DNA of 64,000 nucleotides. Source: Pseudomonas chlororaphis subsp. piscium. Its GTDB lineage: Bacteria; Pseudomonadota; Gammaproteobacteria; Pseudomonadales; Pseudomonadaceae. The position numbers and the translations under genes are program-made. Where the stretch lies: contig NZ_CP027707.1 of assembly GCF_003850345.1 (NCBI RefSeq), positions 6,439,001 to 6,503,000 on the forward strand, read 5' to 3'. Position 1 is the first letter of the stretch. Each line of letters begins with the position of its first letter. Of the stretch, positions 6,943 through 45,323 are shown in pieces. The notes under the pieces are model-generated. The model searched no databases, was not told where the DNA came from, and worked only from the letters and a program-made list of their open reading frames with translations.

Positions 6943-7830
6943 ATGCAAGCCGCCAACCCGCGTCGCGGGTACATCCTGGGCCTGAGCGCCTACATCATCT
7001 GGGGCCTGTTCCCGCTCTACTTCAAAGCCATCGCCAATGTGCCCGCCGTGGAAATCATCATCCACCGGGTGCTCTGGTCCGCGCTGTTCGGCGCGCTGCT
7101 GCTGATGGTCTGGAAGCATCCCGGCTGGTGGCGCGAGCTGCGGGACAACCCCAGGCGCCTGGCGATCCTGGCCCTGAGCGGCACCCTGATCGCGGCCAAC
7201 TGGCTGACCTATGTCTGGTCGGTGAACAACGGACGCATGCTCGAAGCCAGCCTGGGTTACTACATCAACCCGCTGGTGAACGTGCTGCTGGGCATGCTGA
7301 TCCTCGGTGAGCGGCTGCGACGCATGCAGTGGCTGGCAGTGGGCCTAGCGGCGGTCGGCGTGGCGCAGCAGGTGTGGCAGGTCGGCAGCCTGCCCTGGGT
7401 CTCGCTGGTGCTGGCACTGACCTTCGGTTTCTATGGGCTGATCCGCAAGCAAGCGCCAGTCAAGGCGCTGCCGGGACTGGTGGTGGAAACCTGGATGCTG
7501 GTGCCGATTGCCCTCGCCTGGCTCTTGTTCAACCCTACCGCCACCAGTGCCCAGGCGGCCTTCTGGACCAGTTCCGAGGCCTGGTGGCTGGTGGCGGCCG
7601 GCCCCGTCACATTGATCCCCCTGGTGTGCTTCAACGCCGCCGCCCGTCACCTGCCCTACACCACCCTGGGCTTCTTGCAGTACCTGGCGCCAACCCTGGT
7701 GCTGCTGCAGGCGGTACTGCTGTTCGGCGAGCACCTGTCGTCGAGCACATTGGTGGCGTTCATGTTTATCTGGGCCGGCCTGGCGGTGTACAGCGTGGAT
7801 GCCTGGTTGAGCCTGCGCAAACGCAGCTGA
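6943..7830 (+). CDS. rarD: EamA family transporter RarD
   Basis: A 295-aa inner-membrane protein with about ten hydrophobic segments, the drug/metabolite-transporter fold. The signatures GYILGLSAYIIWGLFPLYFK near the N terminus and SASLGYYINPLVNVLLG-like text around residues 100-115 are those of RarD (named for chloramphenicol sensitivity; substrate unknown). The ATG is preceded by AAGGA. The gene is single and convergent with gcvR. Confidence 0.93.
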   Translation: MQAANPRRGYILGLSAYIIWGLFPLYFKAIANVPAVEIIIHRVLWSALFGALLLMVWKHPGWWRELRDNPRRLAILALSGTLIAANWLTYVWSVNNGRMLEASLGYYINPLVNVLLGMLILGERLRRMQWLAVGLAAVGVAQQVWQVGSLPWVSLVLALTFGFYGLIRKQAPVKALPGLVVETWMLVPIALAWLLFNPTATSAQAAFWTSSEAWWLVAAGPVTLIPLVCFNAAARHLPYTTLGFLQYLAPTLVLLQAVLLFGEHLSSSTLVAFMFIWAGLAVYSVDAWLSLRKRS

Positions 7831-8055
7831 TCAATAAACGTACAAACCTCTACAGGCCACGGTTGGCGTGGCCTGCATCTATCCTTCCCAAGGTTATCCA
7901 CAGCGTGATCCCCGCCGTTTGTGCACAAGCCCTTGAAACTGCTGGTTTTTTGATCAGATTCCGCAAAGCCTTGGCTGGCCTGGGCTGGCGGCGGGTCTCT
8001 ACAGGTTATCCACAGGCGCATGCACGCTAAAACTGGATAACCCGCCCTTTCAGGT
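7831..8055. other. Convergent intergenic region with two DnaA boxes and a hairpin
   Basis: A 225-bp gap between the 3' ends of rarD and gcvR. It begins with a GC-rich hairpin (CAGGCCACG, loop, CGTGGCCTG at 7853-7875) without a U tract. It then holds two exact TTATCCACA boxes at 7894-7902 and 8006-8014, both in the context AGGTTATCCACAG, and a near-match TTGTGCACA at 7919-7927. The text between the boxes (TTTTTTGATCAGATTCCGCA) resembles the unit of the large array at 43.8-44.5 kb. Confidence 0.75.
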
Positions 8056-41943: not shown

Positions 41944-42382
41944 GCTGATCTCCACGGCCGACTGTCGGCCTTTATGGTGACGATTGTGCGCAGGCCCATA
42001 AACGCCCATTTACCTATCTGCGACATTCACATGCTTATCGCGACCAGCCCCCAACCACCGGGGCTTGCGCGTCGGGAACAGATTGGGCCATGTCGCCCAT
42101 GGATAAGGTTCTGGGCCGCGCCGGCCCCACACTCGCCTCAACTGATAACCGCTGATTTTTCAGCCTTGCGTCGTAACAGTGGCCGGTGTGACGGGTTTGT
42201 ACGGAGCAAGCCCACAGCATGAAGTTCTGAGTCAAGGCGCCGCGACGAGTCATAGCCCGCTATGGCGAGGAGCGGCAACGCAGAATCAGGACTTCAGGCG
42301 CAGGGATTGCCCGTACAAACCCGTTACACCGGCCACACAGCCACTTTCGCCGGCCACACAGATGGCCATGAGGACTAAAACG
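41944..42382. promoter_or_regulatory. Divergent gbcB-gbcA control region
   Basis: A 439-bp non-coding region serving both gbc genes; in P. aeruginosa the AraC-type activator GbdR acts on gbc promoters. The gbcA-proximal half is filled by a 158-bp palindrome (separate entry). After it, the 12-mer CCGGCCACACAG occurs twice, at 42329-42340 and 42350-42361, just before the gbcA ribosome-binding site. No exact GbdR site was identified. Confidence 0.6.
42179..42336. repeat. 158-bp near-perfectly centred palindrome (MITE-like) in the gbcA leader
   Basis: The outer arms GGCCGGTGTGACGGGTTTGT... (42181-42204) and ...CCGTTACACCGGCC (42311-42334) match at 23 of 24 positions. The interior also pairs imperfectly without indels (ATGAAGTTCTGA with TCAGGACTTCAG). 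The centre is CATAGC-CC-GCTATG at 42251-42264. The right end lies 46 bp before the gbcA ATG. Confidence 0.9.
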
Positions 42383-43678
42383 ATGGACGTCACCGCAACC
42401 CTGAGCCTGGGCGATCCGCTGGAACCCGCACGCAAGGCCACCGCACAAATGCTCCAAGAACGCGAGCGGACCTTCTCCCTGCCGCAGCCGTTCTACTGCG
42501 ACGAGCGCCTGTTCGATATCGACATGCAGGAGATCTTCCAGAAGGAATGGCTGATCGCCGGCATGACTTGCGAGATCCCGACCAAGGGCAACTACATCAC
42601 CCTGCAGATCGGCAAGAACCCGATCATCGTGATCCGTGGCGCCGACGGCGTGGTCCATGCCTTCCACAACGTCTGCCGCCACCGCGGTTCGCGCCTGTGC
42701 ACCAGCGACAAGGGCAAGGTCGCCAAGCTGGTCTGCCACTACCACCAGTGGACCTACGAGCTGGACGGTCGCCTGCTGTTCGCCGGCACCGAGATGGGCG
42801 CCGACTTCGACATGAAGCAGTACGGCCTCAAGCCGGTGAACGTGAAGACCGCCGGTGGCTACATCTTCATCAGCCTCGCGGAAAACCCGCCGGCCATCGA
42901 TGACTTCCTGGCAACCCTGACGCACTACATGGAACCCTACGACATGGAGAACACCAAGGTGGCGGTGCAGACCACCTTGATGGAAAAAGCCAACTGGAAG
43001 CTGGTGCTGGAAAACAACCGCGAGTGCTACCACTGCGGCGGTTCGCACCCGGAGCTGCTGAAAACCCTGCTGGAGTGGGACGACGTCACCGACCCGCGCG
43101 CCGACCAGGGGTTCAAGGACCACGTGGCCGCCTCCGCCGCCGCCTGGGAAGCCGAGAAGATCCCTTACGCCCACGCCAGCTTCGGCCTGCGTAACCGCAT
43201 CGTGCGCATGCCGCTGCTCAAGGGCACCGTGTCCATGACCATGGACGGCAAGCAGGGCTGCGCCAAGCTGATGGGCCGGATCAAGAACCCGGACCTGGGC
43301 TCGATGCGCATCCTGCACCTGCCACACTCGTGGAACCACTGCATGGGCGACCACATCATCGTGTTCACCGTGTGGCCGATCAGCGCCCAGGAAACCATGG
43401 TCACCACCAAGTGGCTGGTGCACAAGGACGCGGTCGAAGGCGTGGACTACGACGTCGAGCGCATGCGCCAGGTGTGGGATGCCACCAACGACCAGGACCG
43501 TCGCCTGGCCGAAGAGAACCAGCGCGGCATCAACTCCACCGCCTACCAGCCAGGCCCGTACTCCAAGACCTATGAGTTCGGCGTGGTCAACTTCGTGGAC
43601 TGGTACAGCGAGCGCATACTGAGCAACCTCGGCGCCGAACCGGCTCCGTACCTCAAGGGCGTGCCGGTTCACGGCTGA
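42383..43678 (+). CDS. gbcA: Glycine betaine demethylase, Rieske oxygenase subunit GbcA
   Basis: A 431-aa Rieske non-haem iron oxygenase that removes one methyl of glycine betaine to give dimethylglycine and formaldehyde. The Rieske ligands are in CRHRGSRLC and CHYHQW (residues about 95-120). The mononuclear iron site is in NNRECYHCGGSHPELL near residue 215. AGGAC precedes the ATG at 42383; the longer frame runs into the palindrome and is not coding. Transcribed away from gbcB. Confidence 0.96.
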   Translation: MDVTATLSLGDPLEPARKATAQMLQERERTFSLPQPFYCDERLFDIDMQEIFQKEWLIAGMTCEIPTKGNYITLQIGKNPIIVIRGADGVVHAFHNVCRHRGSRLCTSDKGKVAKLVCHYHQWTYELDGRLLFAGTEMGADFDMKQYGLKPVNVKTAGGYIFISLAENPPAIDDFLATLTHYMEPYDMENTKVAVQTTLMEKANWKLVLENNRECYHCGGSHPELLKTLLEWDDVTDPRADQGFKDHVAASAAAWEAEKIPYAHASFGLRNRIVRMPLLKGTVSMTMDGKQGCAKLMGRIKNPDLGSMRILHLPHSWNHCMGDHIIVFTVWPISAQETMVTTKWLVHKDAVEGVDYDVERMRQVWDATNDQDRRLAEENQRGINSTAYQPGPYSKTYEFGVVNFVDWYSERILSNLGAEPAPYLKGVPVHG

Positions 43679-43687
43679 TCCAAGACC

Positions 43688-43790
43688 TGTAGGAGCGAGG
43701 CTTGCCCGCGATGAACGCGACACGGTGCATCTGACACACCGGGTTATCGTTCATCGCGAGCAAGGACTAGGCGTCCCCCTGCTCCTACAG
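43688..43790. repeat. REPIN with a long-stem right copy
   Basis: The left copy is a standard family-1 core. The right copy has an extended stem containing GGACTAGGCGTCCCCC between CGCGAGCAA and TGCTCCTACAG. It lies immediately after gbcA and may protect or end its transcript. Confidence 0.8.
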
Positions 43791-43867
43791 AAACCAATGC
43801 TGATGTTGCTGTACAAAATTTGATCTGACTCCCTCCCGGCCATGGCCGACAAGGCCCCCAGCCTTCC

Positions 43868-44460
43868 GCGAACAAGTTATCCACATCTCCACCCACAGCA
43901 AATGTGGGCAACTCGGCTTTCAGCCAACGGATTCATTGGCAGAACCTGAAGAAAATCCGTGACTTATCCAGAAAGGCCTTTTCCATCAGGCTTTGATCAT
44001 TTTTTGAACAAGACTCTGCAGGCCACGTATTTAAAGGCCCACAGGCGAAGGCGAACACCTTATCCACAGAAGCGCCAACAGACTTTGGGGGCAACTTCAC
44101 GGCAAAGGGCGGCGAGCTGTGGAAAACCGCCGAATAGCGCGAAATATCGAGGCTTCAGTACCGCCGACAAGGCAAAACCCCGGATTTGCCTATTTTTCGA
44201 CCACACCCTCGCAGACCGCTGTTTATATGGCTCTCAGCGGACAGCGAACATCTTATCCACAAAGAGGCCAACAGACTTTGGGGGCAAGTCGGCAGCAGCA
44301 GAGGAGCGAGGGAATTCCTTATCCACAGAAAAACCTTCGTAAAAACCTCGACTTAGCTTGATCGTTTTTCGTACAGAGCGCCGCAGCACTTGATTGGCGC
44401 GGCGTGCAGAGAGGGACGAACATCTTATCCACAGAGGCGCACACAGGGATTGTGGGTAAC
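43868..44460. repeat. Degenerate tandem array with DnaA boxes (TTATCCACA)
   Basis: Four diverged copies of a roughly 40-bp motif (GCGAACAnn-TTATCCACA, then CCAACAGACTTTGGGGGCAA or a diverged form). The boxes start at 43877, 44060, 44253 and 44425, so the units are 183, 193 and 172 bp long. A fifth exact box is at 44319-44327. Near-matches are TTATCCAGA at 43964 and the reversed TGTGGGTAA at 44451. Between boxes the units share TTGATCnTTTTTnGnACA-like text. The whole gap 43679-44552 holds no convincing gene. A DnaA-binding role is inference. Confidence 0.8.
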
Positions 44461-44502
44461 CGTGGATACAGGAGGGGAATCAGTCACAAGCAAGCCACGC
44501 CC

Positions 44503-44530
44503 CTGTAGGAGCGAAGCTTGCTCGCGATAA
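44503..44530. repeat. REP family 1, single copy
   Basis: GTAGGAGCGAAGCTTGCTCG lies 22 bp past the etfB stop, between the DnaA-box array and etfB. Confidence 0.75.
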
Positions 44531-44552
44531 CGATAGTGCGACAGGCCCGGCC

Positions 44553-45323
44553 CTAACGGACCACGCCTTCTTCGATCAGCAGCTTGAGGATCGCCTCGGC
44601 CCCAGCTTCGGCGCTGACGCCCTTGAGCACCTGGCCGCCACCGCCGCTGGCCTTGGCGGTCGCGGCTTTCATGCGGTCGGCGCCGCTCTTGGCCTTGATC
44701 ACTTTCAGGCGCTTGGGCCGGGGTTTGGCCGGTTGCAGGGTGGCGCTGGTGAACAGCTCATCGTCGAGCACTTCCACATTCCGCGCCTGTAGCACCCCGC
44801 GTCGGGCCGGGCCGTAGGCGCTCTGCCGTGGCTTGGGCGCGGCGTTATCCACAGTGGCGAGGAACGGCAGGCGCACCTTCAGCCGGCGGCGCTGGCCGCG
44901 CGGCAGGGCTTGCAGCACCAAGGCCACGCCAGCGTCGATGGACTCCACCTGGGCCAGGCCCACCACCAGCGGCCAGCCGAGGTTTTCCGCCAGCAGGAAC
45001 GGCAGCATGCCCGAACCTTCGCCGGTTTCCGCCTGGCTGCCGGTAAGCACCACTTGCGCTCCGGCATCGCGCAGATAATCGGTCAGCGCCGGCAGCGCAT
45101 CGGCACCGGCCGACTGCTCCAGCACGTGCATCTGTTCCAGGCCCATGCCCAGGTACGCGCGCAGGGCCGGCTCGGCGATATCGCCGGCGTGCAGCACCTG
45201 CAGCCTGTCCCCGGCCAGTTGCAGCCCCAGCTCGACTGCCCGCGCATCCTGCTCGGCACGCCGTGGCCGGCCGGAAGTCGGGTGGGCGCCGATGGACACC
45301 AGGCTGATCACATTAGTACTCAT
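44553..45323 (-). CDS. etfB: Electron transfer flavoprotein beta subunit (dimethylglycine pathway)
   Basis: A 256-aa ETF-beta family protein that binds AMP and, with the alpha subunit, shuttles electrons from a flavin dehydrogenase. Seen are HPTSGRPRRAEQDARAVELG at the N terminus, VVLTGSQAETGEGSGMLPFL and KVRLPFLATVDNAAPKPRQS. The C-terminal tail is Lys/Ala/Gly-rich. As last gene of the dgc operon it most likely serves DgcA, not fatty-acid oxidation. An exact TTATCCACA box lies inside the gene at 44845-44853. Confidence 0.9.
   Translation of the reverse strand: MSTNVISLVSIGAHPTSGRPRRAEQDARAVELGLQLAGDRLQVLHAGDIAEPALRAYLGMGLEQMHVLEQSAGADALPALTDYLRDAGAQVVLTGSQAETGEGSGMLPFLLAENLGWPLVVGLAQVESIDAGVALVLQALPRGQRRRLKVRLPFLATVDNAAPKPRQSAYGPARRGVLQARNVEVLDDELFTSATLQPAKPRPKRLKVIKAKSGADRMKAATAKASGGGGQVLKGVSAEAGAEAILKLLIEEGVVR

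Follow-up and report, generated by a model that had tools for sequence, protein, structure and literature searches.

The locus considered here raises the question of what a dense row of DnaA boxes is doing in the gap between two convergent genes. The window, the whole stretch of 64,000 nucleotides that was analysed, belongs to a Pseudomonas genome of one contig (7,065,155 bp). The gap lies between the 3′ ends of gbcA, encoding the glycine betaine monooxygenase oxygenase subunit (42383..43678, + strand; its listed ORF begins upstream of this, at 42179), on the left and etfB, encoding the electron transfer flavoprotein subunit beta (44553..45323, − strand), on the right, both genes being assigned by NCBIfam above the cut-off. 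Exact TTATCCACA boxes were found at 43877, 44060, 44253, 44319 and 44425, all on the + strand, which reproduces in position and strand the five same-strand boxes in about 560 bp of gene-free DNA given in the preliminary description. The same description had placed four of them in a repeated context with spacings of 183, 193 and 172 bp and had taken the array for a degenerate tandem repeat; both points were borne out, the box at 44319 falling outside the register and Tandem Repeats Finder reporting no array. Its estimate of less than one box expected per window also proved right, with 13 boxes seen against 0.08 expected from 100 dinucleotide shuffles. Further exact boxes occur near the array within the ORFs of etfB, etfA and gbcB (44845, 45795, 46054 and 41469). 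Copies of a dispersed CCTGTAGGAGCGAGGCTTGCCCGCGAT-type repeat, which recurs in the same genome and in its relatives, stand on either side of the array (43686-43765 and 44502-44528).

At the level of the genome, the rarity implied by the preliminary description had to be corrected. The box occurs 164 times, about tenfold more often than the reversed pattern (16), and is not rare in this genome. All 164 boxes were placed; 2,500 bases of the 1.246 Mb used were masked, and the total still agrees with the independent count of 164. They are crowded near oriC, with 49 of the 164 within 250 kb and 136 within 1.5 Mb. The array is the densest exact-box cluster of the genome (five in 600 bp), followed by the oriC region beside dnaA with four boxes, and all other places hold at most three.

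Four of the five boxes open the pattern TTATCCACA-N6-CNMACAG-N3-TTG-N-GGG-N-AA. Each of these units carries a trio of DnaA sites, namely a perfect box III (9/9) at position 0, a weak box II on the same strand at +12, and an inverted weaker box I at +26. The trio forms the end of a module of about 105 bp, in which an A/T-tract and an imperfect palindrome precede it in fixed register. The four modules of the array, all on the + strand, lie at 43807..43912 (A1; trio 43877-43911, box III 43877-43885), 43990..44095 (A2; trio 44060-44094), 44183..44288 (A3; trio 44253-44287) and 44355..44460 (A4; trio 44425-44459). In A2, the A/T-tract with TGATCA-like arms occupies 43993-44011 and the imperfect palindrome 44016-44045. 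A gap-free alignment of A1-A4 with units B, C, D1 and D2 from elsewhere in the genome placed the A/T-tract with its TGATCA-like arms at about −65 to −49 and the palindrome, CTGCARGCC..GGCYTGCAG, at about −44 to −15, the latter being least clear in A1, D1 and D2. The IHF consensus was found clearly above shuffle in A2 and A3 and marginally so in B, C and D1, and its best match was only at shuffle level in A1, A4 and D2. In E. coli, elements of the DARS2 type carry sites for both IHF and Fis. The fifth exact box (44319..44327, + strand) stands 106 bp before unit A4, has no trio, and is present in only part of the relatives. Across 299 box-centred array windows, the inverted site at +26 was the strongest secondary site (mean 6.64/9, background 3.18, z 4.5), and the +12 site, box II, averaged 4.76/9 and ranked eighth among the offsets.

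In E. coli, datA and DARS are non-oriC DnaA-box clusters that control DnaA-ATP, DARS serving to recharge DnaA, the initiator of chromosome replication. According to the database records, the DARS1 core reads TAATACACA-TGG-TTATCCACA-GGAAT-AGTGGATAA and the DARS2 core TTCTTCACA-ACT-CTATCCACA-GAAAA-GGTGAATAA, both with boxes at 0, +12 and, inverted, +26. We read these stretches as boxes III-II-I. This reading was borne out for DARS2 by the primers for the deletion of boxes I-III, which leave exactly the trio between them (accessible part of PMC4585315), and for both elements by the accessible text of PMC5742627, in which the two DARS share their box spacing and box I runs opposite to the other two boxes. 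The array resembles DARS1 (bioD-uvrB region) and DARS2 (rppH-mutH region) in having sites at 0, +12 and inverted +26 in non-coding DNA. It differs in presenting tandem units where E. coli has single cores, and in its boxes, since box II scores 8 or 9 of 9 in E. coli and is weak in the array, whereas box III is perfect in the array. Moreover, the present genome has five loci, which lie nearer to oriC than DARS1 and DARS2 of E. coli (0.81 and 2.97 Mb, respectively, in the same part of PMC5742627). The palindrome and the A/T-tract were compared with E. coli through the module model alone. Pairs of boxes separated by 2-3 bp are preferred by the DnaA of E. coli (available portion of PMC11317965), which fits the III-II spacing of the units.

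The best trios scored 8/9/8 in DARS1, 8/8/8 in DARS2 and 7/9/5 in datA (each box out of 9), compared with 9/6/7 and 9/5/8 in the array, 9/6/8 at a further locus, E, and 6/9/4 in the own oriC. In a scan that used the E. coli box consensus alone, the 12/26 geometry ranked first of 128 at totals of 21 and 22 out of 27; at 22 it was found at six places (A1, A4, both B units and both E units), the mean being 0.13. At a total of 20 it ranked only seventh of 128. Then, a second module model, built from 53 modules, was applied to the three E. coli regions, and only the DARS1 core was matched (15.2 bits, E-value 7e-4, on a rough calibration), with no match in the DARS2 or datA regions at these roughly calibrated E-values. 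Like the array, datA is an extra-oriC, origin-proximal and non-coding DnaA-box cluster, and an IHF site between its DnaA boxes is part of it, whereas the array has an IHF consensus clearly above shuffle only in two units. datA was scored by the DARS trio and the module model only, and its best trio has no inverted box at +26. The preliminary description had proposed a datA- or DARS-type control locus and had put datA first. A non-oriC DnaA-box control locus is supported, and datA as first choice was rejected because neither the DARS trio nor the module model matches it; the anatomy appears to fit a DARS core better. The oriC-proximal DnaA-box clusters of Bacillus subtilis and the DnaA-box cluster of Streptomyces are likewise extra-oriC and are thought to tune initiation. 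We liken them to the array as extra-oriC box clusters, and we know of no trio module or helical phasing in them.

The array is not the only place in its genome with such modules. A search for the trio motif with up to 3 mismatches gave nine places and none for the reversed motif: four in the array (locus A), two at 6.185 Mb (B), one at 0.687 Mb (C) and two at 0.823 Mb (D). A profile of 96 modules, whose training set took in A and B and not E, was then run on the 1.246 Mb arm and recovered A (four modules), B (two) and the new locus E (two) with E-values of 3.4e-10 or lower; the next match in the arm reached only 0.049, and the reversed arm gave none. The second model yielded 14 matches in the own genome at an E-value of 0.01, the best 12 of which were four at A and two each at B, C, D and E; the second C unit was absent from its training set. 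These 12 strong modules at five loci lie 0.58-0.88 Mb from oriC on both arms. Locus E falls within the window, with modules at 7824..7929 (trio 7894-7928) and, 112 bp after the first, 7936..8041 (trio 8006-8040), both on the + strand. A and E lie between convergent ORFs, the first E module overlapping the last 7 bases of its neighbour; C lies outside long ORFs, and B is intergenic by our reading of the region, in agreement with the intergenic placement of DARS. Several roles were rejected for the array: a mobile element by the lack of any match in the plasmid and phage collections, an RNA element by the lack of any Rfam match in 43600-44600 up to an E-value of 1, and a promoter role by the position of the array after both convergent genes. 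The suggested tie to the betaine genes found no support either, since the array sits between convergent ends, modules occur at four other loci, and several relatives lack gbcA in the flank examined.

The array was then followed across genomes. A DNA search matched 32 of 57 genomes (own included), a number of them solely through the dispersed repeat beside the array (43686-43765), which contaminated the matches. Among 30 loci examined (L031-L060, own locus included), 23 had gbcA, etfB or etfA in the flank, and several of the remaining seven were dispersed-repeat hits; L047 and L049 carry four boxes in the array spacing with none of the three genes in the flank. Three boxes 168-198 bp apart were present in 161 of the 298 Pseudomonas genomes scanned, the own one among them, and in 0 of 298 for the reversed pattern, and among the matches listed the pattern stood at one place per genome or at two overlapping ones. 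A public-genome scan gave at least 119 stretches. Of the 80 listed, 56 were from Pseudomonas, including P. fluorescens, P. syringae and P. frederiksbergensis, and 51 held three or four trio units, all 51 from Pseudomonas; the other five Pseudomonas loci had no trio units, and one of the 24 non-Pseudomonas stretches holds one. Other Pseudomonas genomes, in which the preliminary description had suggested a search for box clusters at this site, thus conserve the array, mostly between gbcA and etfB. Nor did the opposing case that it had named, an inert repeat scattered genome-wide, agree with the small number of strong modules in each genome and their recurrence at particular loci.

The trio motif was found in 17 of 17 hand-picked Pseudomonas genomes, with 6 to 11 copies each and none reversed, a few of the copies falling outside loci A-D. 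An identical 3-mismatch copy far from oriC and from the other loci recurs in G017, G032, G160 and G197 (e.g., G017:C1:1933558) and possibly reflects conserved coding sequence. When genomes were drawn evenly, the motif was present in 115 of 119 from Pseudomonas (own included) and the reversed form in none. Every one of the 20 genomes on which the second model was tried gave a match, among them 13 that had contributed no training module, the four motif-negative ones included, and locus E was matched in 12 of 12 relatives searched. With regard to position, dnaA was placed in 17 genomes (16 of the hand-picked set and the own one, G023 being left out), some of which gave no match to B, C or D. In 14 of these 17, locus A and those of C and D that could be located sit on opposite arms; G018, G029 and G181 differ. 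Furthermore, the distance between A and dnaA amounts to 6-11% of genome length in 45 of 46 genomes and to 17% in G029; this set comprised 45 of 59 genomes and the own one, the 14 dropped being mostly in several contigs, and genome sizes were rounded for 31. In the order as a whole, the motif was matched with 2 mismatches allowed in 16 of 244 genomes, including nine from other families. Nine places in eight of these nine genomes were examined: none overlapped a stop-to-stop frame of 150 aa or had dnaA or dnaN in the 4 kb around it, and several showed a full box II as well as the A-tract in register. Three motif places in a sister genus do overlap stop-to-stop frames of 150 aa.

Unit spacing was compared in 57 four-unit arrays, a subset of the 76 loci examined, and took the values 128, 139, 149-151, 160-161, 171-173, 181-183 and 192-193 bp. 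On a tree built from the modules themselves, 41 spacing changes were inferred: 23 of 1 bp, 11 of 11 bp, 4 of 22 bp, 2 of 10 bp and 1 of 9 bp, and none of the 41 was of 2-8 or 12-20 bp. Of the changes larger than 1 bp, 17 of 18 were thus of 10, 11 or 22 bp. The array spacing evolves by whole helical turns, and the units keep their helical phase. At locus C, spacings of 364-365 or 374-376 bp in 11 genomes differ by the same step as in the array. Helical phasing as a general rule was dropped, no such steps being seen at B, D and E: the two B units are 236 bp apart in the own genome, the D spacing is 202 bp in 11 of the 12 genomes with two D units (201 in G015) and 187 in G078, and the E spacing is 112-113 bp in 12 of 12 relatives. 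Locus B of G082 (G082:C1:5986034-5986469) has four units, 133-134 bp apart.

Taken together, we consider it slightly more probable than its opposite that the array consists of four tandem DnaA modules of the DARS-core type and is one of five such loci near oriC, that is, part of a multi-locus DARS-type control element. The geometry of the units is identical to that of both E. coli cores, and trios with a full box II lie outside long ORFs in distant families of the order. The genome also encodes IHF alpha and Hda, the factor that generates ADP-DnaA in E. coli, each above cut-off, and both were counted in favour as well. In the proposed mechanism, DnaA would bind box III and then, with I and II, form a head-to-head complex as in E. 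coli DARS; the array would be folded into one complex by its phased units together with proteins bound at the accessory sites; and ADP would leave DnaA, so that the apo-protein could reload ATP and initiation timing be set. Head-to-head DnaA on DARS boxes I and II is described in the accessible part of PMC8682772. Several observations were counted against the DARS reading. Box II is weak, yet boxes I and II are crucial in E. coli DARS2 (PMC4585315, the part cited above); the 12/26 geometry drops to seventh at total 20, and the module model misses DARS2; the IHF consensus is clear in A2 and A3 solely, and phasing was not seen at B, D and E; and the loci lie nearer to oriC than DARS1 and DARS2, more as datA does. 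More tentatively, and with somewhat less than even confidence, we propose a DARS-type network of about a dozen modules at five loci on both arms near oriC, its largest member being the phased four-unit array, which would fold into one nucleoprotein complex with a second protein on the palindrome, and DARS1 being a reduced relative of an older module.

Other explanations have to be weighed against the DARS-type reading. Titration, in which high-affinity boxes near oriC would sequester DnaA once a round is over and hold back re-initiation without nucleotide exchange, seems unlikely, with an appreciable chance left to it. The crowding of the genome's boxes around oriC, with the array as the densest site, and the steady distance of the array from dnaA are what a sink would give, whereas titration would not call for the weak inverted box conserved at one offset, for the palindrome or for the helical phasing. 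A datA-like locus, on which DnaA-ATP would assemble and its ATP be hydrolysed, is a rather poor prospect. It would share with datA (4.392 Mb of MG1655, ori-proximal by what we take to be the position of oriC in that strain) the conserved ori-proximal position, and the genome encodes IHF alpha; against this stand the datA trio without its inverted box, the failure of the module model in the datA region, and the lack of a clear IHF site outside A2 and A3.

It is improbable, in our view, that the modules are chiefly architectural, with DnaA or another protein on them organising the origin-proximal chromosome and having little effect on the nucleotide state of DnaA. The spread of modules over both arms at 0.58-0.88 Mb would suit such a role, the palindrome suggests a second protein, and the phased units suggest a folded complex, whereas architecture alone leaves the DARS geometry unexplained. 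Hardly any weight is given to an ordinary non-functional repeat, a mobile element or a regulatory site of the neighbouring genes. The tandem units are degenerate and a dispersed repeat does flank the array; against such origins stand the few strong modules at recurring loci, the lack of a plasmid, phage or Rfam match, and the place of the array after both genes.

Among the open-access papers listed, at the level of titles and the beginnings of abstracts and with most subscription papers outside this scope, we found no report of DARS or datA in Pseudomonas. Where the accessible parts of PMC4285127 and PMC8203912 treat Pseudomonas, they deal with oriC, the sequence of the box and the promoter of dnaA. 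The DARS2 core is conserved among gammaproteobacteria related to E. coli (accessible part of PMC4245941), and the word Pseudomonas is absent from that text. The loci suggest an earlier origin and a broader distribution of DARS than the papers centred on E. coli describe. The resetting of DnaA between replication rounds is well understood in E. coli but little understood in other organisms, and the loci described here are exact sites at which DnaA reactivation can be tested against titration and hydrolysis in Pseudomonas. Moreover, the range of spacings among natural arrays suggests that DnaA units loop together, and it allows this to be tested directly.
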